From: Holophagaceae bacterium UBA706
Lineage (GTDB): Bacteria; Acidobacteriota; Holophagae; Holophagales; Holophagaceae
Assembly (NCBI GenBank): GCA_002298155.1
Contig: DBME01000026.1
Coordinates: 7,379-22,611, forward strand
Direction: 5' to 3'
Length of the DNA stretch: 15,233 nt
Position 1 is the stretch's first letter; each line of letters opens with the position of its first letter. This document shows positions 3,964-14,504 of the stretch, piece by piece. Below the pieces are notes generated by a model. It ran no database searches. It had not been told where the DNA came from and saw nothing but the letters and a program-made list of their open reading frames with translations. Both the position numbers and the translations under genes were made by a program.

Positions 3964-4039
3964 GGGGGCGTGGCCCAGTGGCTACGGCACCTGGCTCTGA
4001 CCTAGGCACTCGGAGGTTCGATTCCTGCCGCCCCTTCCA
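3964..4039 (+). tRNA. tRNA-Gln (CTG)
   Basis: Cloverleaf: acceptor GGGGGCG/CGCCCCT, anticodon stem CCTGG/CTAGG with loop CTCTGAC (anticodon CTG, U33 present), T-loop TTCGATT, discriminator T and encoded CCA. The T-stem has one G-G mismatch, so it is slightly degenerate. First tRNA of the array. Confidence 0.8.
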
Positions 4040-4050
4040 CCCATCGCCGA

Positions 4051-4124
4051 TGGGGGATCGTTCAACGGCAGGACGCGGGCTTTTGGCTCCCGAGACCCTG
4101 GTTCGACTCCGGGTCCCCTAACCA
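4051..4124 (+). tRNA. tRNA-Gln (TTG)
   Basis: Acceptor TGGGGGA/TCCCCTA, with the TGGGG start typical of glutamine tRNAs. Anticodon loop TTTTGGC gives TTG. T-arm CCTGG-TTCGACT-CCGGG, discriminator A, CCA encoded. One C-U mismatch closes the anticodon stem. Eleven nt after the previous tRNA. Confidence 0.85.
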
Positions 4125-4135
4125 TTCCTCCCCAG

Positions 4136-4230
4136 GGTGAGGTCAACCGAAACCAGGTATCGGCCCCGGCTGCTATCCGGGTTGGGGATGCTATATCTCC
4201 ATATGGGTTCGACTCCCATCCTCACCGCCA
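4136..4230 (+). tRNA. tRNA-Ser (GCT), class II
   Basis: Acceptor GGTGAGG/CCTCACC, anticodon arm CCCGG-CTGCTAT-CCGGG (GCT), a long variable arm with stem GGGGAT/ATCTCC as expected for serine, T-arm ATGGG-TTCGACT-CCCAT, discriminator G and CCA. The D-stem is CCGA/TCGG. Confidence 0.88.
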
Positions 4231-4423
4231 TTGCATTTCATCAATTCTTGTTCTTTGACAGCTTCATATCGAATATAACTGCAATTCTTCAGCGATTGAC
4301 CTCGCTGAAGCAGGTGGAAAACCTGGCAGGCACCGGCTCTCTTCCAGCCCGGCAGATCAACGTGTTCTCACCCCTTAGAGAAGCGCATCACCGGCTCACG
4401 AGGATCCCGGGCCTGCCTACCTA
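4231..4423 (+). ncRNA. Structured inter-tRNA RNA of unknown family
   Basis: This 190-nt gap holds no tRNA or ORF but has strong pairing: CTTCAGCG/CGCTGAAG (4287-4294 with 4303-4310), then CAGGT-ggaaa-ACCTG (4311-4325). A long-range stem pairs GGCAGGC (4325-4331) plus CCGG (4333-4336) with CCGG (4407-4410) plus GCCTGCC (4411-4417), bulging only A4332; its first base is shared with the second hairpin, so the two may compete. An inner hairpin TTCTC/GAGAA lies at 4365-4382. An end-to-end stem with a distal hairpin resembles Y-RNA layout, but no tRNA motifs are visible. Confidence 0.45.
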
Positions 4424-4502
4424 GGAGCGTTGGAGGAGCCTGGCCGTCCTCGGTGCACTGTCTATGCACACATCGCGGGTTCGAATCCCGTACGCTTCGC
4501 CA
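4424..4502 (+). tRNA. tRNA-Asp (GTC), divergent
   Basis: Acceptor GGAGCGT/ACGCTTC (GGAGCG is typical of Asp), D-stem GAGG/CCTC, anticodon arm GTGCA-CTGTCTA-TGCAC (GTC), T-arm GCGGG-TTCGAAT-CCCGT, discriminator G, CCA. Position 37 is T rather than a purine, which is unusual. Confidence 0.8.
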
Positions 4503-4507
4503 ATCAT

Positions 4508-4585
4508 CGCGGGCGGCTGGTCAGGATCAGATCCGGTCTCATAAGCCGTGAAGCAAATCCCGTTCAACTCGGGAGCCCGCATCCA
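4508..4585 (+). tRNA. Initiator-like tRNA (CAT), degenerate
   Basis: Acceptor CGCGGGC/GCCCGCA leaves C1 opposite A72, the hallmark of bacterial initiator tRNA. Anticodon loop CTCATAA also matches fMet. T-arm TCCCG-TTCAACT-CGGGA, discriminator T, CCA. It lacks the three G-C pairs normally closing the initiator anticodon loop, and the D-arm is short, so initiation activity is doubtful. Confidence 0.65.
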
Positions 4586-4589
4586 CCAC

Positions 4590-4663
4590 CGCTGGGTAGC
4601 TCAGTTGGCCAGAGCGCCGGCCCCATAAGCCGGAGGCCGGGGGTTCGGTTCCCTCCCCAGCGA
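4590..4663 (+). tRNA. tRNA-Met (CAT) with C33
   Basis: Acceptor CGCTGGG/CCCAGCG, D-stem GCTC/GAGC, anticodon stem CCGGC/GCCGG perfect, loop CCCATAA (anticodon CAT, C at 33 instead of U). T-arm GGGGG-TTCGGTT-CCCTC, discriminator A. CCA is not in register (CAC follows; CCA occurs 2 nt late), unlike the neighbours. Confidence 0.75.
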
Positions 4664-4669
4664 CACCAC

Positions 4670-4746
4670 GCCCCTGTAGAGGAACTGGCACACTCGCCAC
4701 GCTCAGAATGTGGACACTCCCGGTTCGAATCCGGGCAGGGGCACCA
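4670..4746 (+). tRNA. tRNA-Leu (CAG) lacking the long variable arm
   Basis: Acceptor GCCCCTG/CAGGGGC perfect, leucine-like D-arm (GGAACTGGCACAC), anticodon loop CTCAGAA (CAG), T-arm CCCGG-TTCGAAT-CCGGG, A73, CCA. The variable region is only ACACT, whereas bacterial leucine tRNAs are class II. Confidence 0.82.
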
Positions 4747-4777
4747 GCAGCACCCCCGGGCCGCCCCGGGGTCTCCC

Positions 4778-4848
4778 GGCCCGCGCTCGGGGAGCAGGTA
4801 GGACTCCAAATCCAACCTAGCGAGGTTCGAGCCCTCGGCGGGTCGCCA
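4778..4848 (+). tRNA. tRNA-Trp (CCA), compact D-arm
   Basis: Acceptor GGCCCGC/GCGGGTC (one G-T), T-arm CGAGG-TTCGAGC-CCTCG, G73 as in Trp, CCA. Anticodon loop CTCCAAA gives CCA. The anticodon stem AGGTAGGA/TCCAACCT has one A-A mismatch, and the D-arm is reduced to GCTC-ggg-GAGC. Only 71 nt. Confidence 0.7.
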
Positions 4849-4852
4849 TCAA

Positions 4853-4941
4853 TGCCGCAGAGCTACACGGACGAAGCAGTCGGCCGATAACCGACCTGCG
4901 CGAAACCGCTCAAGCAGGTTCGACTCCTGCTGCGGCAACCA
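4853..4941 (+). tRNA. tRNA with Ile anticodon (GAT), class II-like, C33
   Basis: Acceptor TGCCGCA/TGCGGCA perfect, anticodon arm GTCGG-CCGATAA-CCGAC (GAT, C33), an 18-nt variable region able to form GCG/CGC, T-arm GCAGG-TTCGACT-CCTGC, A73, CCA. Isoleucine tRNAs are normally class I, so amino-acid identity is uncertain. The D-loop contains GACGAAG, which by chance or otherwise fits the GNCGAA(N)G pattern recalled for animal Y RNAs. Confidence 0.72.
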
Positions 4942-5110
4942 TTCACAAACTTCCTGTGCCGGCCGACCAGAAGGCATCACGCACATGAAACCTCACACCG
5001 TTCGCGCGGGCCCCCATCCGGTGGGGCAGGGCGGTGGTGCGGGCCCTCGCGGCCCGCGGCAGGACCGGACGGGGACCGCGCCCCCCCTGCGAGAAAACCC
5101 TTCACGGCGA
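4942..5110. other. Spacer between array and IS607 right end, with GC-rich hairpins
   Basis: No gene seen. Two perfect hairpins: CCCCA-tccgg-TGGGG (5012-5026) and GCGGGCC-ctcgc-GGCCCGC (5039-5057). If the element ends at 5111, bases just left of it (5110 downwards, minus strand) would act as the guide part of the omega RNA. Confidence 0.5.
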
Positions 5111-5470
5111 GTTGAGCGGAATCGGTATCGCACCGTTCCTAAAACCGATAGCAAATGAGTCATTTGCCATTGGACGCCCCCCGAACAGTGCTGGTGGCGG
5201 ATTCGCGTTCCGGGATCCCACCGGGAACACCTGGGTTGGTCCCGCCCGCGCCAGTTCCCTTTGCCGGTCCGGTGGCGGGTGGGATCGCTCTGGAGCGACC
5301 AGATGTGCGCTGCAAGCGCCGCTCTCTGCGCAGCGTCTTGCCCCAGAAGGACCATACATGCTCCCCACGCTTCCTCACGGGTGCTGGGGAGGTGCCATGG
5401 CCCCTTGACGGGTTGGGACGCTCCGAGAATCGAAAGGCCCTTCGGGTGATCACCAGCGCCGCTGAACCAT
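5111..5470 (-). ncRNA. Probable TnpB guide RNA (omega RNA / reRNA) scaffold
   Basis: TnpB elements encode their guide RNA at the 3' end of tnpB and into the right end. Here the minus strand beyond the RuvC-like part is rich in hairpins: TCGCTC/GAGCGA near 5283-5296, GCGCT/AGCGC near 5310, the GCAAATGA/TCATTTGC palindrome at 5151-5167, and ATCGGT...ACCGAT (5121-5126 with 5144-5149). The 5' limit is arbitrary. Supported by family knowledge and structure, not by expression. Confidence 0.55.
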
Positions 5471-6677
5471 GAAGGGAAATGCCGTACCGCTGGGCGAACT
5501 TGCTCCGCCCAATGATCGAGGTGAAGGCTGGATTGACCTCATGAACCGGAATGCCCGCATCGAAGGCACGGGCTTTCAGGTTCTCCAGGATCCTGGCGTA
5601 GCTCAGGCTGGAAAGCATCCGGGCGTAGCGCACCCCGGAGTCCTTCATCTCCCGCTTCTTGCGGGTGAAGTCCAGGGCCTCGGTCACCAGGGGTTTCCGG
5701 ACCTCCTGAGCGATTCCTATAACCTGCTTGATGGCATCGCCGATCCGGGCCTTGGCCTGCCCGGTGGAGCAACCGTAAGTGATAAGGTCGATCCGGTGGA
5801 TGGTCACCAGGTTCCCATCCCCATCGGTCTCAGCCAGGGCCAGGTGATCCGCGTTGAGATCCAACCCCAGGGCCCCTGCCACAGCCTGCATGGCCCCACC
5901 GGCCTCGACCGCGGTCGAGGCGAATACCCGCCAGCCCTTCTCGTCCCGGAGGAACCGGTAGGAGAGCGCCTGCTCACCAGCCAGGGCCGCCTCCAGGCGG
6001 TTGGCCCCATGGGGGAAGGTCGCTTCCAGGGTGAGGAACTTGGCATGCTCCGCCATCTGGTTGGGAAGGCGGAGCTTCAGGGCGAACCGGCCATCACCCA
6101 GGGGGGTCATCTGGCACCCTTGGCAGCCTGCGGTCTCGTCCTTGGACCCCGGGATGAACACCTCGTCTGCCCGTGCCTCCCGCCAGTCCTTGAGCCAAGC
6201 TGCGTGATCGGCATAGCCGTTCGCCGCCAATGCGAACTGGGCCCTGAACAGCTTCCGGCTCCCGAAGCATATCCGGATCCGCCCCGCGGTGCGGTCAGCC
6301 AGGAGGTCCGCATGCCGCTGCTGGAGGATGCCCAGGCGTCGCGCCTTCTGATGGCGCTTGTTGGAGCCTTTGGGCAGTTTGGACAGTCTTGCCTCCAGGC
6401 CCTCGATACGCCTCGTCAGGTCGGTGATCCGGGCTTTCTGGATTTCCTGTAGACTTCGGACCTTGCCCTTCACGGCAGCGGCCAGGGCATTGTATTGCCG
6501 CGCCGTCAGGCCGTGCAGAACCATGAAGGTGGGCTTGATCGTACCTGGATTCGCCCCGGCTGCCAGGGCGGCGAACAACGCCCGTTCCGCCTGGCCATGA
6601 ATGGCCGCATACTGACCCAGCAGCGCCTCGCCCTCGGGAGAGAGCACGGGCCGCGACTGGTAGGTCCGGGTCATCAT
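5160..6677 (-). CDS. tnpB: TnpB RNA-guided endonuclease of an IS607-type element
   Basis: 505 residues, ATG overlapping the tnpA stop by 4 nt (ATGA). RuvC-like motifs: GLDLNADHLALAETD (Asp273), VTEALDF (Glu333), and VNPAFTSIIGRSKFAQRYGISLHGSAALVITRRA at about 381-414. The third acidic position expected by analogy with canonical TnpB (DxNAAxN) is His403; this form occurs in the TnpB lineage with the HVWSFW C-terminal motif, seen here at 440-445. No zinc-finger CxxC pair is seen in the RuvC insert. The last 60 residues are low-complexity and probably double as guide-RNA template. Whether the nuclease is active cannot be told from sequence. It promotes element retention by cutting empty sites in studied relatives. 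Confidence 0.85.
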   Translation of the reverse strand: MMTRTYQSRPVLSPEGEALLGQYAAIHGQAERALFAALAAGANPGTIKPTFMVLHGLTARQYNALAAAVKGKVRSLQEIQKARITDLTRRIEGLEARLSKLPKGSNKRHQKARRLGILQQRHADLLADRTAGRIRICFGSRKLFRAQFALAANGYADHAAWLKDWREARADEVFIPGSKDETAGCQGCQMTPLGDGRFALKLRLPNQMAEHAKFLTLEATFPHGANRLEAALAGEQALSYRFLRDEKGWRVFASTAVEAGGAMQAVAGALGLDLNADHLALAETDGDGNLVTIHRIDLITYGCSTGQAKARIGDAIKQVIGIAQEVRKPLVTEALDFTRKKREMKDSGVRYARMLSSLSYARILENLKARAFDAGIPVHEVNPAFTSIIGRSKFAQRYGISLHGSAALVITRRAFRFSERPNPSRGHGTSPAPVRKRGEHVWSFWGKTLRRERRLQRTSGRSRAIPPATGPAKGTGAGGTNPGVPGGIPERESATSTVRGASNGK

Positions 6678-7243
6678 TCCCGCACTGCCTTGAGGGGATT
6701 CTGGGCCTTGGCCTTTGCGGAACGGCGACCGTAGAGGCGGGCACAGAACAAGGTGAGAACCTCGACCCTGCCCTGAGCCAGTTCGTCCTTCACGTCGCCG
6801 GGATCAACCACCACGAGGCTTCGCCCCTGGGCTTGGCGTGCCGATTCGACATCCTCGACCCTCAAACGCATCAGGCGATCGCGATACTGGACGGTGATCA
6901 CGTTGATGAGGGGGTCGGCGAGGATCTTCCTCGGCTTGGGGCGATGATCGATGAACCCGCTTCCCACTTCGCCAACAGCCTCTGCTGCCGGGAGGCCGCG
7001 TGCGGCGGCGAACGTCGAGAGCCGACCCAGTTGCGCCTCCAGATCGGATTTCTGCCCAGAACCGGAGACGCGGGGGGAAATCGCGACCTTGCCAGCAACC
7101 GTGCCGGTGGGCGCTGGCTCATCGACCAGGGTCGTCCCGGAGGCGGAAAGGAAGAACGGCACCGGCATTCGGTCATCCTTGACCCACCGCAAGGTGGTTG
7201 CGTAGTGGATGCCCTTCAACTTGGTCCAGTGACTTAGTCTCAT
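6674..7243 (-). CDS. tnpA: IS607 TnpA serine recombinase
   Basis: 189 residues. The N-terminal MerR-like helix-turn-helix (HWTKLKGIHYATTLRWVKDDRMPVP, residues 5-29) is typical of IS607 TnpA. It is followed by the serine-recombinase core: PRVSGSGQKSDLEAQ (Ser60 the likely nucleophile, Arg58 beside it), EVGSGFIDHRPK, YRDRLMRLRVE, SLVVVDP, and a C-terminal LCARLYGRRSAK. The usual YARVSS(H/D)Q motif is altered to ISPRVSGSGQ and HRDRL to YRDRL, so activity may be reduced. There is no SD before ATG 7243. It catalyses excision and insertion of the element. Confidence 0.88.
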   Translation of the reverse strand: MRLSHWTKLKGIHYATTLRWVKDDRMPVPFFLSASGTTLVDEPAPTGTVAGKVAISPRVSGSGQKSDLEAQLGRLSTFAAARGLPAAEAVGEVGSGFIDHRPKPRKILADPLINVITVQYRDRLMRLRVEDVESARQAQGRSLVVVDPGDVKDELAQGRVEVLTLFCARLYGRRSAKAKAQNPLKAVRE

Positions 7244-7261
7244 GTGGCTAAATTAGGTTGA

Positions 7262-7500
7262 ATTCCTATTTATGCCAGTTTATTTACAACTTGCTTGCAG
7301 CCCTTCCGCAGCAGCAACAAACAGGGATACATCGCTCGCAACGCACCGGGCCAGGTACGCCGTGCTCGCAAGAGCCTGGCAAGGACCGCCCCCAGGACCC
7401 AGCTGATACCAGCCGGCCACCCAGGGGGAGAAAGGGTTCGAACCCCTATCGCGAAGGCCCACTCCCTGTTGGCCTCCCTCTGCGGATTCATTTCCACCTA
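7262..7500 (+). other. Array segment without intact tRNA; hairpins and a tRNA T-arm remnant
   Basis: GCCAG (from 7354) and GCTC-gcaa-GAGC-CTGGC form a stem with a GCAA tetraloop and a 9-nt 5' bulge. An AGGG-TTCGAAC-CCCT T-arm-like sequence lies near 7432-7450, followed by an AGGCC/GGCCT hairpin, but no acceptor or anticodon arm fits. It may be a decayed tRNA disrupted by the nearby insertion, or another tRNA-like RNA. Confidence 0.4.
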
Positions 7501-7576
7501 TCTCCCGTAGCTCAGCGCCCAGAGCGGCGGCCTCCGAAGCCGCAGGCCGTGGGTTGAAGTCCCACCGGGAGCACCA
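7501..7576 (+). tRNA. tRNA-Arg (CCG) with altered D/T loops
   Basis: Acceptor TCTCCCG/CGGGAGC (T1-C72 mismatch), D-stem GCTC/GAGC, anticodon arm GCGGC-CTCCGAA-GCCGC (CCG, U33), T-stem GTGGG/CCCAC, discriminator A, CCA. The T-loop is TTGAAGT (G at 56) and the D-loop AGCGCCCA has CC where G18G19 belong, a complementary change. Confidence 0.82.
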
Positions 7577-7580
7577 AACG

Positions 7581-7694
7581 CGGCAGCAAGGCATGGCGGT
7601 ACTTCGTAGCTCAGTTGGTAGAGCATTTGCCATTTAAGCAAAATGTCACTGGTTCAAATCCAGTCAATCCCGCAAGGGATTACCCCGGCTGCCG
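7581..7694 (+). ncRNA. tRNA-like RNA with capped acceptor helix (Lys TTT-like)
   Basis: Contains a D-arm (TAGCTCAGTTGGTAGAGC), anticodon-like arm TTTGC-CATTTAA-GCAAA (TTT, A at 33) and T-arm ACTGG-TTCAAAT-CCAGT. The 5' bases cannot pair as an acceptor strand; instead AATCCC after the T-arm folds on itself (AATCCC-GCAA-GGGATT, 7664-7679). CGGCAGC (7581-7587) pairs with GCTGCCG (7688-7694), and GGTA with TACC, enclosing the whole module. No CCA. Either a Y-RNA-like tRNA mimic or a recombined pseudo-tRNA. Confidence 0.55.
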
Positions 7695-7715
7695 ATTCCC
7701 TCCGCGTAACCAAAT

Positions 7716-7827
7716 CTTGTCGCAGCAAGGCCAAGGGCTTCATCAACGCTGGTTCGATTCCAGCCCTCCCGAATGGGAGGTAGCCAAGTGGTAAAGCACC
7801 AACGCCCTGGCCGATTTCCTCGACAAG
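7716..7827 (+). ncRNA. Candidate Y RNA (YrlA-like) with circularly permuted tRNA module
   Basis: The ends pair: CTTGTCG (7716-7722) with CGACAAG (7821-7827), an internal loop (6 and 8 nt), then GGCCA-a-GGGC (7729-7738) with GCCC-TGGCC (7804-7812). Inside, in order: T-arm GCTGG-TTCGATT-CCAGC (7748-7764), acceptor helix CCTCCC-gaat-GGGAGG (7765-7780) closed by a tetraloop, and D-arm TAGCCAAGTGGTAAAGCAC (7781-7799). This is a tRNA opened in its anticodon arm and closed at its acceptor end, as known for bacterial YrlA RNAs, which tether Ro protein to effectors such as PNPase. It ends 90 nt before the Ro start codon. The exact animal Ro-binding motif (GNCGAA) was not found. Confidence 0.75.
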
Positions 7828-7917
7828 CACCTTCTCCCCCCGGCGCCACCCTGCCAATCCCGGCCAGGCGCCCGCCTCTCCCTCGCGCAGCAGGGCAGTA
7901 CCTGAAAGGAGGCCACC

Positions 7918-9378
7918 ATGGCCCGATTCGCCTTCTGGAAGCGCAAGGCTTCCGAACCCGACACCCTCAACCTCGCCGCAGGCCAGGCCCACACCCTGAG
8001 CCCCAAGCTGGAATTCGCCTCGGCCCTCATGACCACCTTCACCACGGACACCTTCTACGCGTCCGCCGGCGACCAGGTGGCCCGCATCGCCGAACTGACC
8101 CGCAAGCTCGAGGACCCCCTCTTCGCGGCCAAGGCCGCCGTCTACACCCGCAAGCGCAACGGTCTCCGTTCCGTCTCGCACATCGTGGCCGGCGAGCTCT
8201 CCCGCCGGGTGGACGTGAAGGGCGCCCCCTGGCTCCGTTCCTTCTACCGCAAGGTCGTCCAGCGTCCCGATGACATCACCGAGACCCTGGCCTACCTCAA
8301 GGGCTCCGGCAACCCCGAGCTGCGCAAGCTCTCCAACGCCATGAAGCGCGGCTTCGGCGAAGCCCTCGGCGCCTTCGACGCCTACCAGCTCGCCAAGTAC
8401 CAGCGTTCCGACCGGGACCCCAACCTGATCGACGCGGTGAACCTGATCCACCCCAAGTCCACGCCCGCCCTCGCCGCCCTGATGACCGGAACGCTGAAGC
8501 CCGCCGAGACCTGGGAGACCAAGCTCACCCAGGCCGGTCAGCAGGCCGCGAAGGAAGGCCTCACCGAGACCCAGAAGACCGACCTGAAGGGCCAGGCCTG
8601 GGGCGACCTCCTCGTCCAGCGCAAGCTCGGCTACCTCGCCGCCCTGCGCAACCTCCGCAACCTCGCGGAACAGGCCCCGGAAACCCTCCACCTCGCCCTG
8701 GACCTCCTCACCGATGTCCGGCAGGTGGCCACGTCCCAGGTCATGCCCTTCCAGCTCGCCACCGCCGCCGCGGTGCTGGCCCACACCAAGGCCGACACCA
8801 CCCCGGTGAAGAAGGCCCTGGAAAAGGCCATGGAGCTTTCCCTCATGAACGTCCCCACCTTCGAGGGCCAGACCCTCATCGCCGTGGACGTTTCGGGCTC
8901 CATGAACGGCCGGCTGCTCCGCATCGCGGCGCTCTTCGCGGCGGTGCTGTTCAAGTCGCAGGAGAAGGCGGACGTGATGCTCTTCGACACGCAGGTGCAG
9001 CACCTCCGGCTGCACCCGTCCGACTCGCTCACCAGCCTCACCCAGGCGATCGAGAACGCCGCCACCCACGGCGGAACGGACTTCCGGCTCATCTTCCAGA
9101 ACGCCGCGAAGGCCTACGACCGGATCATCATCCTGTCGGACATGCAGGCCTGGGTGGGCCACCAGACCCCGGCCGCCGAGCTTGCCGCCTACAAGCGCAA
9201 GCACAAGGCGGACCCGCGGATCTTCAGCTTCGACCTGGCGGGTCACGGAACCCTCCAGTTTCCGGAGGCGAAGGTCTTCGCACTGGCGGGCTTCACGGAT
9301 GCCGTTCTCGGCACCCTCAAGAACCTGGAAAAGGACCCCTCGGCCCTCGTACACGAGATCGAGGCGGTCCAGCTGTGA
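7918..9378 (+). CDS. rsr: TROVE-domain Ro60 ortholog (Rsr), RNA quality-control ring protein
   Basis: 486 residues, ATG with AAAGGAGG 6 nt upstream. Residues about 10-310 are alpha-helical repeats of the TROVE type (RKLEDPLFAAKAAVYTRK, LRSVSHIVAGEL, LRKLSNAMKRGF, HLALDLLTDVRQV). These form the ring that binds single-stranded 3' ends inside and Y RNA outside. Residues about 316-480 form a von Willebrand A domain with an intact metal site: DVSGS 324-328, GGTDF 385-389, LSDMQ 406-410. Bacterial orthologs act in rRNA maturation, stress RNA decay and, with Y RNA, as part of a PNPase complex. It lies within the tRNA array, preceded by the candidate Y RNA; no rtcB/rtcA RNA-repair genes accompany it. 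Codon use matches a well-expressed high-GC gene. Confidence 0.95.
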   Translation: MARFAFWKRKASEPDTLNLAAGQAHTLSPKLEFASALMTTFTTDTFYASAGDQVARIAELTRKLEDPLFAAKAAVYTRKRNGLRSVSHIVAGELSRRVDVKGAPWLRSFYRKVVQRPDDITETLAYLKGSGNPELRKLSNAMKRGFGEALGAFDAYQLAKYQRSDRDPNLIDAVNLIHPKSTPALAALMTGTLKPAETWETKLTQAGQQAAKEGLTETQKTDLKGQAWGDLLVQRKLGYLAALRNLRNLAEQAPETLHLALDLLTDVRQVATSQVMPFQLATAAAVLAHTKADTTPVKKALEKAMELSLMNVPTFEGQTLIAVDVSGSMNGRLLRIAALFAAVLFKSQEKADVMLFDTQVQHLRLHPSDSLTSLTQAIENAATHGGTDFRLIFQNAAKAYDRIIILSDMQAWVGHQTPAAELAAYKRKHKADPRIFSFDLAGHGTLQFPEAKVFALAGFTDAVLGTLKNLEKDPSALVHEIEAVQL

Positions 9379-9529
9379 AAGCCTCGGGGTCCTAGGCTCT
9401 GGGGTGCTCACCAACGCTCCCCGGCCCTTGGGCGGGGGAGGAAAGGAGGTGATCTGACAACGCACGACCCGGAGTGGAGGGCCGAATCCGACCCTCGGCC
9501 CTCCACGCCCGGCACCGCAGGAAACCCAG
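9379..9529 (+). other. Post-Ro segment: two strong hairpins around an anti-16S sequence
   Basis: CTCCCC-g-GCC / GGC-g-GGGGAG (9417-9440) is a GC-rich hairpin just after the Ro stop. AAAGGAGGTGATC (9442-9454) follows, complementary to the 3' end of 16S rRNA, but no start codon lies at normal distance. Then a perfect 12-bp stem: GTGGAGGGCCGA (9474-9485), 9-nt loop, TCGGCCCTCCAC (9495-9506). No T-runs, so it is not a standard terminator, and tRNAs continue downstream. Confidence 0.55.
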
Positions 9530-9605
9530 GCCCGTGTCGCGAAGAGGTACAGCATCCCGGCTTAAACCCGAGCCATTGCCGGTTCGACTCCGGCCGCGGG
9601 CACCA
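9530..9605 (+). tRNA. tRNA-Leu (TAA) lacking the long variable arm
   Basis: Acceptor GCCCGTG/CGCGGGC, anticodon arm CCCGG-CTTAAAC-CCGAG (TAA; one C-A mismatch), variable region only CCATT, T-arm GCCGG-TTCGACT-CCGGC, A73, CCA. The D-stem is reduced to two pairs. Confidence 0.75.
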
Positions 9606-9610
9606 TCAAC

Positions 9611-9685
9611 GCCCTTGTAGCTCAACGGAAGAGCGCCGCCCCCACATGGCGGAGGCCGTTGGATCAACACCAACCAGGGGCACCA
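9611..9685 (+). tRNA. tRNA-Val (CAC) with C33 and altered T-loop
   Basis: Acceptor GCCCTTG/CAGGGGC, D-stem GCTC/GAGC with GG in the loop, anticodon arm CCGCC-CCCACAT-GGCGG (CAC, C33), T-stem GTTGG/CCAAC perfect but loop ATCAACA (A54; T55, C56 and A58 kept), A73, CCA. Confidence 0.75.
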
Positions 9686-9687
9686 AC

Positions 9688-9767
9688 GGGAGAGAGCGCA
9701 AAGTGGCCGAGCGGCTGGCCTTTCAAGCCAGACAACCTAGCGGGTTCGAGTCCCGTCTCTCCTGCCA
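9688..9767 (+). tRNA. tRNA-Glu (TTC)
   Basis: Acceptor GGGAGAG/CTCTCCT, short D-stem CGC/GCG, anticodon arm CTGGC-CTTTCAA-GCCAG (TTC, U33), 8-nt variable region ACAACCTA, T-arm GCGGG-TTCGAGT-CCCGT, G73, CCA. It begins 3 nt after the Val tRNA. Confidence 0.78.
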
Positions 9768-9771
9768 ACAG

Positions 9772-9848
9772 GCACCTTGAACTTCGAGCGGCAGAAGCCC
9801 CGGCTCTTACCCGGGACGGTGCGGGTTCAAGTCCCGCAAGGTGCACCA
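9772..9848 (+). tRNA. tRNA-Lys (CTT)
   Basis: Acceptor GCACCTT/AAGGTGC perfect, D-arm CTTC/GAAG with GG in the loop, anticodon arm CCCGG-CTCTTAC-CCGGG (CTT), T-arm GCGGG-TTCAAGT-CCCGC, A73, CCA. Confidence 0.82.
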
Positions 9849-9852
9849 ATAT

Positions 9853-9927
9853 CAGCGCGTGGGGCAGCGGCCGCCCTCCAGTTTCGGGAACTGGCTTACG
9901 CAGGTTCGAATCCTGCCGCGCTGACCA
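9853..9927 (+). tRNA. tRNA-Pro (CGG)
   Basis: Acceptor CAGCGCG/CGCGCTG perfect, D-stem GGG/CCC, anticodon arm CCAGT-TTCGGGA-ACTGG (CGG), T-arm GCAGG-TTCGAAT-CCTGC, A73, CCA. Cleanly standard apart from a 3-bp D-stem. Confidence 0.88.
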
Positions 9928-9929
9928 AA

Positions 9930-10003
9930 GGGGGAATCGTCCAAAGGCAGGGCCTTGGTCTTCCAAACCGATGATGCCGGTTCGAATCCGGTTTCCCCCT
10001 CCA
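9930..10003 (+). tRNA. tRNA-Gly (TCC)
   Basis: Acceptor GGGGGAA/TTCCCCC perfect, anticodon arm TTGGT-CTTCCAA-ACCGA (TCC), T-arm GCCGG-TTCGAAT-CCGGT, T73 as usual for Gly, CCA. Two nt after the Pro tRNA. Confidence 0.88.
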
Positions 10004-10051
10004 CTTTCGCCGGATCCGCAAAGGACGAGGCGCCGCGCCTGGCGCGATCGG

Positions 10052-10225
10052 CTACTGCTCCTTGGTCTCCGCGCCCGTTAGCCTGACGATGCGCAGTTCG
10101 GGGGGATTCACTCGGGTCTGTTTGACATTCTGAAGGTTGCGGAGTTCCACCCGGTTCTCGTCCGCCTTCCCGGAGTGGTCGTAGATCCAATAGGCGGACC
10201 GGTTCGTGTGCAACCCGAAGGTCAC
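10052..10225 (-). CDS. Short antisense ORF or gene remnant (57 aa), unrecognised
   Basis: Minus-strand frame from GTG 10225 to TAG 10052 reads as plausible protein (VTFGLHTNRSAYWIYD..., ending TGAETKEQ), unlike the low-complexity shadow frames. A stop lies immediately upstream of the GTG and no SD is visible, so it may be the 3' remnant of a gene cut off when the array formed. It fills most of the 10004-10260 gap, which otherwise shows no tRNA. Confidence 0.35.
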   Translation of the reverse strand: MTFGLHTNRSAYWIYDHSGKADENRVELRNLQNVKQTRVNPPELRIVRLTGAETKEQ

Positions 10226-10260
10226 CTACACCCACGCAGTTATTGCAGATATGAAGCTAC

Positions 10261-10335
10261 GCCTCCCAGGTCATGACGCCGTGACGCACGCCCCGTAAGC
10301 GTGAAGGCTGGGTTGAAGTCCCAGGGGAGGATCCA
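10261..10335 (+). tRNA. tRNA-Thr (CGT) with C33 and altered D/T loops
   Basis: Acceptor GCCTCCC/GGGAGGA (G1-A72 mismatch), D-stem GTCA/TGAC, anticodon arm CACGC-CCCGTAA-GCGTG (CGT, C33), T-stem CTGGG/CCCAG, T-loop TTGAAGT, T73, CCA. D-loop TGACGCCG has CC where G18G19 belong, matching G56 in the T-loop. Confidence 0.8.
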
Positions 10336-10338
10336 TTC

Positions 10339-10416
10339 GCGGGCGTGGCGGAACCGGCATACGCCTCCAGCTCAAACCTGGAGCCCTTGTGGGTTCGAAT
10401 CCCACCACCCGCACCA
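10339..10416 (+). tRNA. tRNA-Leu (CAA) lacking the long variable arm
   Basis: Acceptor GCGGGCG/CACCCGC (one C-A), typical leucine D-arm (GCGGAACCGGCATACGC), anticodon arm TCCAG-CTCAAAC-CTGGA (CAA), variable region GCCCTT only, T-arm GTGGG-TTCGAAT-CCCAC, A73, CCA. Last tRNA, 12 nt before the HNH start codon. Confidence 0.85.
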
Positions 10417-10428
10417 ACGAGGTATCCC

Positions 10429-10944
10429 ATGTCCAGAACCACCAAAAGCCACCGTTTCCAGACCGTCCTCGCCTTGGACTGCCACTTCATGCCCATGGTC
10501 GAGATGTCCCGCCGCAAGGCCCTCAAGGCCCTCGCCACGGGCCGGGCCCACGCCCTGGACCTGCGCACCTGGTCCAAGCTGGGCCTGCAGGAGGTCGCCT
10601 CGCAGCCGCTCCACGCGGTGGTCTTCGCCAAGGTGAAGGCCGTCTCCGAGGCCAAGCTCGGCTTCGGCCGCGGCACCGCCAGCATCCTGCGCCGTGACGG
10701 GCACCGCTGCCAGTACGTGGGCTGCACCCGCCGCGCCACCACCGTGGACCACGTCATCCCCCGCTGCCAGGGCGGCCCCAGCGTCTGGGGCAACCTCGTG
10801 GCCTGCTGCCGCGAGTGCAACGCCCGCAAGGGAGGAAGGACGCCGGAGCAGGCCGGGATGGAGCTCAAGGCGGGGATCCGCTCGCGGCGGGCGCTGCTGA
10901 TGGATCGGTTTCTCGCGATGGCGAAGGCGGGAGGGACTTTGTAA
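10429..10944 (+). CDS. HNH endonuclease at the end of the tRNA array
   Basis: 171 residues from ATG 10429, with GAGGT 6 nt upstream; the longer in-frame ATG at 10345 lies inside the tRNA and is rejected. The N-terminus (QTVLALDCHFMPMVEMSRRKALKALATGRAHAL) matches the leader domain of the COG1403 HNH family. The C-terminal HNH domain has zinc cysteines 94, 99, 127 and 130, catalytic DH (107-108), Asn122 and the CNxxK tail, then RTPEQAGM. All catalytic positions seem present. It is translated from the same transcript as the array. Target unknown: it could mobilise the island like a homing nuclease, or act on foreign DNA. Confidence 0.88.
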   Translation: MSRTTKSHRFQTVLALDCHFMPMVEMSRRKALKALATGRAHALDLRTWSKLGLQEVASQPLHAVVFAKVKAVSEAKLGFGRGTASILRRDGHRCQYVGCTRRATTVDHVIPRCQGGPSVWGNLVACCRECNARKGGRTPEQAGMELKAGIRSRRALLMDRFLAMAKAGGTL

Positions 10945-13249: not shown

Positions 13250-14398
13250 TCAAACCTCCGTCCCCTCTGCCAGCACCTCCAGGACCTTGTCGTAGGCGAA
13301 AAGCCGGTTCCTCTGTCCTCCGGTGATCTCCCTGATCAGCCCGGCCCGCACCAGGTAGTCCAGGGACTTGTTGACCGTGGCTGGGGAAAGCCCTTCCGCC
13401 TTGCAGATCGCTCCTGACGAGCTGATGGGATGGCCCTGGAGGTGGTGATGTACTTGGATTACCGACGCGGCGACCCGGGTGCTCTGGATGGCCTTCAGGT
13501 CGTCGTTGAACAGGGCAAGGAGGTTTCTGGCGGTAGTGACGGCGCTGTCCGATGTCTCGGCGACACCCTGGTAGAAGAAGTCCAGCCACGCCTCCCAGTC
13601 GCCGTCCTGGCGGACCCTTTGGAGAAGATCGTAATAGGTGGACCGGTGCTCCTTCAGGAAAAGGCTGAGGTAGAGCATCGGTTCCCTCAGAACCCCCTCC
13701 CGGCTGAGGATAAGGGTGATCAGAAGCCGGCCCACACGCCCGTTGCCATCCAGAAAGGGATGCAGGGTTTCGAACTGAACATGGGCCAGGGCCGCCTTGG
13801 TAAGGGGGTCGGAAGGCCCGTGCAGAAAAGCCTCCCAAGACGCCAGACATCCCGCCAGTTCCTCGTGAGGCGGCGGAACAAAGGTCGCATTGCCGGGTCG
13901 GCTGCCTCCGATCCAGTTCTGGGACCGGCGGAACTCTCCGGGCTCCTTGCTGCTTCCTCGCCCCTTGGAGAGAAGCACTCCGTGGATTTCCCTTACCAGA
14001 CGCAGGCATAGGGGAAACCCCTCCCCAAGCCGTCGAAAGCCGAGGGCCATGGCGGCCACATAATTCGATACCTCCACGACGTCGTCCATGGGAGCGCCGG
14101 GAGCCTGGGCATTTTCGAAGGTGAGCAGGTCCGACAATGAAGACTGGGTGCCTTCGATCTGGGAGGAGAGCACGGCCTCTTTGCGGACGTAGCTGTAAAG
14201 GAAGAGCGCTGGATCGGGTAGCAGGGTCGTCACGCCATCGAGGCGGCCAAGGGCGGTGGCAGCCTGCTGGTGGGCCATCACCAATCCGTTTGTCCAGGAA
14301 ATCGGAGGATCCGGTGGCAAAGGTGCCGGGATGAAGGCCCGAACCCTCTCGCTCTGGGTGCTCTGGGTGACGTAATGGCCCGTTGGGGTTCGGAGCAT
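13250..14398 (-). CDS. fic: Fic family protein, AMP-transferase with N-terminal inhibitory helix
   Basis: 382 residues from ATG 14398, chosen because AAGGA lies 7 nt upstream; an earlier ATG at 14452 has none. Catalytic Fic motif HPFLDGNGRVGR (213-224) is intact. SSQIEGT at 78-84 gives Glu82, the inhibitory glutamate of class II Fic proteins that blocks ATP binding until relieved. The C-terminus (about 325-375, ICKAEGLSPATVNKSLDYLVRAGLIREI) is a winged helix-turn-helix, so it may bind DNA and regulate itself. It probably AMPylates a protein target; the target is unknown. Confidence 0.92.
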   Translation of the reverse strand: MLRTPTGHYVTQSTQSERVRAFIPAPLPPDPPISWTNGLVMAHQQAATALGRLDGVTTLLPDPALFLYSYVRKEAVLSSQIEGTQSSLSDLLTFENAQAPGAPMDDVVEVSNYVAAMALGFRRLGEGFPLCLRLVREIHGVLLSKGRGSSKEPGEFRRSQNWIGGSRPGNATFVPPPHEELAGCLASWEAFLHGPSDPLTKAALAHVQFETLHPFLDGNGRVGRLLITLILSREGVLREPMLYLSLFLKEHRSTYYDLLQRVRQDGDWEAWLDFFYQGVAETSDSAVTTARNLLALFNDDLKAIQSTRVAASVIQVHHHLQGHPISSSGAICKAEGLSPATVNKSLDYLVRAGLIREITGGQRNRLFAYDKVLEVLAEGTEV

Positions 14399-14418
14399 CC
14401 GAGGTCCTTCCGAAACTG

Positions 14419-14439
14419 AAATAAGAGTCTGTCTTATTT
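14419..14439 (-). promoter_or_regulatory. Perfect 8-bp inverted repeat upstream of fic, likely operator
   Basis: AAATAAGA (14419-14426), spacer GTCTG, TCTTATTT (14432-14439), just upstream of the fic SD. It probably overlaps the minus-strand promoter (TAAAAT close by). The HTH of Fic itself is a candidate ligand. Confidence 0.55.
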
Positions 14440-14504
14440 TAGCAAATGGCACAATTATAAAATAACAGTTCTACGGATGGCTGTTCGCTTGCCTGATTTA
14501 CACG

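Follow-up and report, generated by a model that had tools for sequence, protein, structure and literature searches.

A Ro60 gene and three related RNAs lie within a tRNA array

The window—i.e., the whole stretch of 15,233 nt of DNA analyzed here—contains a Ro60 orthologue embedded in an array of tRNA genes, and an end-motif scan identified three RNAs (elements C, B and A) upstream of this gene (Table 1). Both the TROVE domain (Pfam, 3.8e-14) and the Ro60-type vWA domain (vWA_Ro60, 6.3e-13) exceed their Pfam cut-offs, and the protein also matched TROVE/Rsr/Ro60 chains in the PDB, so that the adjoining Ro60 gene named in the original prediction is real; the predicted location in a tRNA array was likewise borne out by ARAGORN. 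Ordinary tRNAs, tRNA-Lys(TTT) among them, are encoded elsewhere in the host genome, which indicates that the array in the window is accessory—this check consisted of a family search of the host's own genome (an assembly 81.5% complete), with ARAGORN run on 25 of the 30 loci returned.

Table 1. Coordinates of the features discussed in the text, counted from the first nucleotide of the window.
Feature	Position	Strand	Description
Accessory tRNA array	3964..10416	+	17 ARAGORN genes, around the Y RNAs and Ro60
505-aa ORF	5160-6677	-	No Pfam match
Resolvase-domain ORF	6674-7243	-	
Element C	7305..7486	+	182 nt; end motif TCCGCAG / CTGCGGA, T-arm-like hairpin (end-motif scan, fold)
tRNA-Arg(ccg)	7501..7576	+	CCA end one nucleotide ahead of the element B outer stem
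Element B	7578..7707	+	Y RNA containing a complete tRNA, break at positions 7/8
B, outer stem	7578-7583 / 7702-7707	+	
B, D arm	7609-7624	+	
B, anticodon arm	7626-7642	+	Loop CATTTAA
B, T arm	7648-7664	+	
B, acceptor hairpin	7666-7681	+	AATCCC-GCAA-GGGATT
Element A	7716..7827	+	Y RNA; T arm, acceptor hairpin, D-like segment (sequence, fold, RF02553 alignment)
A, outer stem	7716-7722 / 7821-7827	+	CTTGTCG / CGACAAG, 7 bp
A, inner stem	7729-7738 / 7804-7812	+	GGCCAAGGGC / GCCCTGGCC, 9 bp and one bulged A
A, T arm	7748-7764	+	Loop TTCGATT
A, acceptor hairpin	7765-7780	+	CCTCCC-GAAT-GGGAGG (GAAT loop)
A, D-like segment	7781-7797	+	
Ro60 orthologue	7918..9378	+	486 aa, TROVE and vWA domains (Pfam, PDB sequence matches)
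HNH endonuclease-domain ORF	10345-10944		
Fic-domain gene	13250-14452	-	Downstream of the array

The three RNAs have a common end stem, which consists of an outer stem, a CAGCAA / ATTYCCT internal loop and an inner stem. Only element A had been described in the original prediction; the two RNAs directly upstream of it, elements B and C, are absent from that account. We also examined a related island (L042) from another genus of the same family, with a Ro60 that is 77% identical to the one in the window, a similar tRNA array of 30 ARAGORN genes and four RNAs retrieved by the end-motif scan (10062-10194, 10279-10406, 10415-10548 and 10556-10693). At both loci these RNAs share their strand with the tRNAs and Ro60, and the gap of a single nucleotide between the tRNA-Arg gene and the outer stem of element B is found in L042 as well (10277 and 10279). 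The counterpart of element C in L042 (10062-10194) gave a full-length, weak match to the Deinococcus Y RNA family RF01053, which is not significant (20.1 bits, E 0.65, against a gathering score of 80).

Several other genes were noted at these loci. The two minus-strand ORFs within the array span a region of the window (5160-7243) that, by eye, resembles an insertion of the IS607 type encoding a TnpB-like protein. ORFs with an HNH endonuclease domain recur near the islands (in the window, in L050 at 7154-7735 and in L171 at 7802-8998), and both the window and L042 (16738-17817, plus strand) have a gene with a Fic domain on the downstream side of the array. Moreover, TROVE genes adjoin tRNA arrays in L043, L044, L053 and L054, with 20, 13, 23 and 12 ARAGORN genes, respectively, in the stretches examined. 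An uncultured phage of 634,780 bp (LR745206.1, L057) encodes a Ro60 45% identical to that of the window, with Y-like motifs upstream of the gene by eye and no tRNA detected by ARAGORN in the 19 kb examined.

Element A is a divergent YrlA-type Y RNA

In element A, a T arm, a capped acceptor hairpin and a D-like segment follow one another in this order, and the paired ends of the RNA occupy the place of the absent anticodon arm. The features on which the original prediction rested—the permuted order, an acceptor helix closed by GAAT, and ends that pair in the anticodon-arm position through 7 bp and 9 bp with an internal loop—were all located in the sequence. The minimum free energy (MFE) of the RNA is -47.1 kcal/mol (z -4.31), and none of 200 dinucleotide shuffles was equally stable, which argues that the fold is not due to chance. 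The D stem is weak: by reading, two of its four pairs form (GCCA/AAGC), and the unconstrained MFE structure places another hairpin in the D region. With such a D stem and no anticodon arm, element A does not have the 'unusually complete tRNA core' that had been attributed to it; its neighbor, element B, is the complete one.

A covariance search had been named as a check in the original prediction. Element A aligned with the entire Rfam model of YrlA (RF02553, model positions 1-114 of 114; 28.2 bits, E 0.00067), a score under the gathering score of 69, which is a curated Rfam threshold and no biological trait. We therefore call element A YrlA-type by its architecture—it has the YrlA order, with a weak D stem, and an adjoining Ro60 orthologue—and not a certified member of RF02553. 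Its counterpart sits at the same place in L042 (10556-10693; RF02553, 33.8 bits over model positions 24-84, also below gathering), which supports the prediction of a Y RNA with permuted-tRNA architecture next to Ro60. The outer stem of element A is almost identical between the two loci, and the outer stems of its sister elements vary and still pair.

As the alignment makes clear, the order T arm, acceptor, D arm is the RF02553 consensus; RNAs of the same order adjoin Ro60 genes of phages, of a plasmid and of MAGs from other groups, and the permutation itself is already in print. The permutation of element A is thus a known architecture and not a local event, and the proposal that one of the array's tRNAs gave rise to the RNA locally could not be upheld. 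Element A is a divergent example of this architecture, in which the end stem takes the position of the anticodon arm according to the known YrlA plan.

Other variations on this plan were seen in single RNAs. A Y-type RNA of the Methylosinus trichosporium OB3b plasmid pOB3b1 (L064, 5931-6055), which adjoins genes annotated as Ro60, RtcR and RtcB, has a module seemingly opened inside the D loop; in its fold, GAGC/GCTC encloses the T arm and the capped acceptor, supporting the D-loop break in part in this single example. One RNA in L150 (1277-1410) may be opened in the variable loop (T arm, acceptor, D arm, GCAA-capped hairpin), a single example with which the unconstrained fold disagrees, and another RNA of the same source (1047-1183), of the element A order (type A), retains a long variable arm. 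A hairpin after the D arm was found in none of the 67 lenient type A matches.

In element B, the end stem enters a complete tRNA between positions 7 and 8

Element B bears the same end motif as element A, and both have the paired ends and the conserved bulged stem of bacterial Y RNAs. Its remaining parts run in the order D arm, anticodon arm, T arm, acceptor 3' strand, GCAA and acceptor 5' strand. This is neither the YrlA order nor that of an ordinary tRNA, with pairing acceptor strands at its two ends—the alignment with a natural-order model stops at positions 7-66. Rfam detects element B merely as tRNA positions 7-64, because the 5' acceptor strand comes after the 3' strand, to which it is joined by GCAA. 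The fold has a z-score of -2.42, and the MFE structure redraws the D/anticodon region. Our literature searches, which four primary YrlA papers lay outside, brought up no Y RNA that contains a complete tRNA or is broken between positions 7 and 8; relative to this literature, RNAs of the element B order (type B) represent a new variant of Y RNA design.

The two orders were compared using models constructed from 26 natural tRNAs (of 57 eligible), either in natural order (R2) or rearranged as positions 8-72, GCAA and positions 1-7 (R1); the GCAA loop of R1 was picked after element B had been seen, so this model favors GCAA-capped elements. Element B of the window was the best of 153 R1 matches from 16 sources, with 74.6 bits spanning positions 1-76 versus 55.2 bits over positions 7-66 by R2. 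For the five sources given both models, an R2 partner was found for all 62 R1 matches: 51 of them scored between 9 and 24 bits lower with R1, four lay between 0 and -6, and seven favored the rearranged order. Nine of the 51 ordinary matches in this paired comparison also belong to the training set of the models. The seven differences (R1 minus R2) were +19.4 bits for element B of the window, +13.1 for the type B RNA of L170, +12.0 for that of L042, +10.0 for a class-II element of L042, +4.2 for a match at 9421 of L042, +0.6 for the element A counterpart of L042 and +0.2 for the type B RNA of L050. The match at 9421 was rejected as type B, since by eye it is a truncated tRNA-like stretch; the degenerate stretch there (9416-9475) lies in the array and has the normal order.

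Among 87 further sources, the best R1 match came from L136 (67.7 bits, versus 49.3 by R2); the corresponding R1 and R2 scores were 47.0 versus 41.4 bits for L072, 44.1 versus 42.4 for L131, 53.1 versus 51.5 for L130 and 47.7 versus 48.1 for L121. Three more cases gave 61.5 versus 55.7 bits (L249), 31.0 versus 25.3 (L118) and 52.6 versus 52.7 (L051). Hence R1 scarcely separates L050 (+0.2), L051 (-0.1), L130 (+1.6) and L121 (-0.4), and the type B RNA of L054 is absent from the R1 matches. Some R1 matches that had no R2 partner, e.g., those in L104 and L110, proved to be type A on folding; the score difference alone is therefore no proof of type B, and every case was also read by eye.

Type B RNAs recur next to Ro60

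Altogether, we identified 27 type B elements in 24 sources, comprising six bacterial genomes and 18 IMG/VR contigs. The bacterial genomes are the present one, JACPUT010000006 (titled Acidobacteria), Akkermansiaceae UBA2367, Verrucomicrobia MAG-85, a genome from the same phylum as MAG-85 (G281) and a Chitinophagales MAG. Nine elements were kept from 25 lenient type B matches, the other 16 being dropped by eye as type A, other or chance (L048, L053, L083, L089, L091, L094, two in L115, L122, L127, L136 at 5753, L145, L148, L156, L171 and L172). Six came from reading the sequence together with model matches (L136, L118, L121, L050, L054 and a second one in L051), and 12 from pattern scans after near-identical contigs had been merged by eye. 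All four arms are present in 21 of the 27 elements, including L050 and L266, in which the acceptor is weak. An acceptor hairpin is missing in five elements (the second of L051, L253, L257, L264 and L267), and L054 has no clear D arm.

The pattern scans, which combined the Y motif with a D arm and were repeated with a variant, used no Ro60 information, and yielded 18 viral contigs with the first pattern and three with the variant. By tblastn, Ro60 was found in 20 of these 21 contigs, on the same strand and within about 1.3 kb; four of the 20 had previously been fetched via Ro60 and several are near-identical, and among the distinct new contigs the gene was present in 12 of 13. One pattern match, in L271, was rejected as an ordinary tRNA and has no Ro60. 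A control pattern with a shuffled prefix matched no viral contig, a weak control given that a single shuffle was used. In bacteria, the first pattern was found in one of 396 genomes of this phylum (the present one) and in one of 387 genomes of the other phylum (G281)—lower bounds for type B, because the pattern misses known type B RNAs in two members of these genome sets (G014 and G201). A partial tRNA match in a further contig (G000:C251) was discarded as an ordinary tRNA truncated where the contig ends.

We further observed that ARAGORN calls some type B RNAs as tRNAs, namely tRNA-Arg(cct) in L170 (8593-8665, minus strand), tRNA-Tyr(gta) in L131 (2378-2456) and tRNA-Asn(gtt) in L051 (8820-8893); type B RNAs may accordingly be misannotated as tRNAs. 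When 11 type B bodies were compared with 441 unique ARAGORN tRNAs, among them a few type B RNAs miscalled as tRNAs, they were 74-83% identical to the nearest tRNA, with inconsistent nearest isoacceptors, and 52-77% identical among themselves. These identities support neither a recent capture from a known tRNA nor a single descent.

Covariation supports the rearranged fold

The type B structure was examined in an alignment of seven cores, which retained L130 despite a misplaced gap and left out L121, L051, L050 and L118, in which MAFFT had misaligned or cut the acceptor. The proposed partners pair in 94.2% of the cells, as compared with at most 47.4% when the partners are slid, and two-sided changes occur in 12 of the 20 pairs. 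The helix specific to the type B order, namely the acceptor hairpin, is 90% paired, with two-sided changes in four of six pairs. Unconstrained folding reproduced the arms in the type B RNAs of L042, L136 and L249. Individual elements have moderate fold z-scores (five elements, -1.80 to -3.07), and seven of 200 shuffles were as stable as the type B RNA of L042. By reading, the acceptor is capped by a GNRA tetraloop in 14 of the 27 elements and by another loop in eight. The L042 element at 10415-10548 is of the class-II type, with acceptor, anticodon and variable arms each ending in GCAA.

Interpretation of the Y RNA set

We have high confidence in the architecture and Ro60 linkage of the Y RNA set described above. 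In the mechanism that we propose, the locus would encode a set of Ro60-partner Y RNAs, each joining one end stem to a tRNA-like module that has no free ends. These RNAs would be cut out of the transcript of the tRNA array, and Ro60 would bind the end stem, by analogy with other Y RNAs. In element B, the end stem is inserted between positions 7 and 8, with the four arms kept and the acceptor sealed by a GNRA tetraloop; lacking a CCA end, such an RNA could not be charged, and it would instead present its tRNA body and anticodon loop to a tRNA-reading enzyme. As to use, the RNAs may keep enzymes that cut or repair tRNAs occupied, or recruit them, as a decoy or as a tether by a Ro60/RtcB repair module—a tentative proposal to which we give slightly less than even chances, both variants being compatible with the sequence. 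As a whole, an explanation that joins architecture, Ro60 linkage and use seems probable to us.

The anticodon loop has 7 nt in 17 of the 23 type B elements examined; among these 17 clear loops, U33 is present in 16 (the exception being element B of the window) and a purine at position 37 in all, together with 11 different triplets. A tetraloop replaces the anticodon loop in three of the 27 elements (two in L072 and the class-II element of L042). In type B, the arm is kept and the identity of the anticodon is variable. It is quite conceivable, if short of likely, that type B RNAs act like other Y RNAs, gating Ro60 and tethering an exonuclease such as PNPase via the tRNA-like fold, with a passive anticodon arm. 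PNPase tethering is the function of a bacterial Y RNA reported as tested in the parts available of PMC7790460 and PMC8394870, and both the variable triplets and the tetraloops would suit a passive arm; the frequency of U33 and of purine 37, however, exceeds that anticipated for a loop without a role, unless the modules were recently captured from tRNAs. In a more specific proposal, which we consider rather unlikely, type B RNAs would be anticodon-bearing decoys held by Ro60, soaking up the anticodon nucleases, or other defence enzymes that read tRNAs, encountered by the phage or bacterium with the island. Each island would then show an unchargeable tRNA body bearing an anticodon triplet particular to that island, and replacement and repair of damaged tRNAs would fall to the tRNA array and to any RtcB present.

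Element B could also be read as a true permuted tRNA gene, the ends of which would be cut and joined (e.g., by RtcB) and the GCAA removed by RNase P/RNase Z to give a working tRNA. The presence of a whole tRNA with mostly normal anticodon loops and the RtcB genes of L042 and L170 would fit this scenario, as would the known permuted genes, which break at various positions and may have an intervening sequence as short as one nucleotide (PMC3978253). Yet the frequent GNRA caps form a loop without CCA, five elements have no acceptor hairpin and three have an anticodon tetraloop, element B of the window lacks U33, the ends bear the motif of the neighboring Y RNAs, and the host already has an ordinary tRNA-Lys(TTT)—all of which makes a working tRNA very improbable. 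Finally, it is extremely improbable that element B represents a former tRNA gene of the array, now decayed, with a hairpin-capped look by chance: single elements do fold just moderately better than shuffles, and other degenerate tRNA-like stretches exist in the array, but the covariation of the seven cores, the Ro60 genes adjoining nearly all pattern matches and the shared end motif contradict this idea.

Comparison with known RNA systems

The Ro60-partner Y RNAs proposed here can be compared with known systems. In YrlA (RF02553; Salmonella structure 6CU1), as in elements A and B, a paired-end stem is combined with a tRNA-like module, a capped acceptor and an adjoining Ro60 (PMC11472068, PMC8394870). 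When superposed on tRNAs, the 6CU1 structure is related to them by a circular permutation (PMC11472068); Ro60 orthologues are described as binding the Y RNA stem, and YrlA as a substrate of tRNA-modifying enzymes (PMC8394870). Element A shares the order T arm, acceptor, D arm with YrlA, whereas element B differs from it in its order (D arm, anticodon arm, T arm, acceptor hairpin), in having its ends between positions 7 and 8, and in the retained anticodon arm. These differences suggest that bacterial Y RNAs imitate tRNA by more than a single design. Because the Ro60 stem can enter the tRNA elsewhere, the whole molecule, including the anticodon arm, may be displayed with its charging end sealed. 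YrlA has been suggested to act as a competitive inhibitor against an anticodon nuclease (PMC7790460, accessible text), and type B makes this suggestion directly testable, since it carries the part of a tRNA that such nucleases read. For phage tRNAs, in turn, a role as decoy or as supplement in the face of defence systems that cleave tRNAs is under discussion (PMC13096335).

The permuted tRNA genes of red and green algae and Thermofilum resemble type B in their permuted parts and in the short joiner of the acceptor strands (PMC3978253). In contrast to type B, with its many GNRA-closed acceptors and the Y RNA motif at its ends, these genes mature to tRNAs by splicing at a bulge-helix-bulge junction. 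The rsr-yrlBA-rtcBA RNA repair operons (PMC7790460) bring together Ro60, Y RNAs and RtcB, as do L042, L170 (both with type B) and L171, in which RtcB (PF01139) was found among the selected ORFs scanned; unlike in these operons, no RtcB was found among the nine window ORFs scanned with Pfam. The islands described here further differ from the repair operons in that they lie within tRNA arrays and carry several Y RNAs of differing order.
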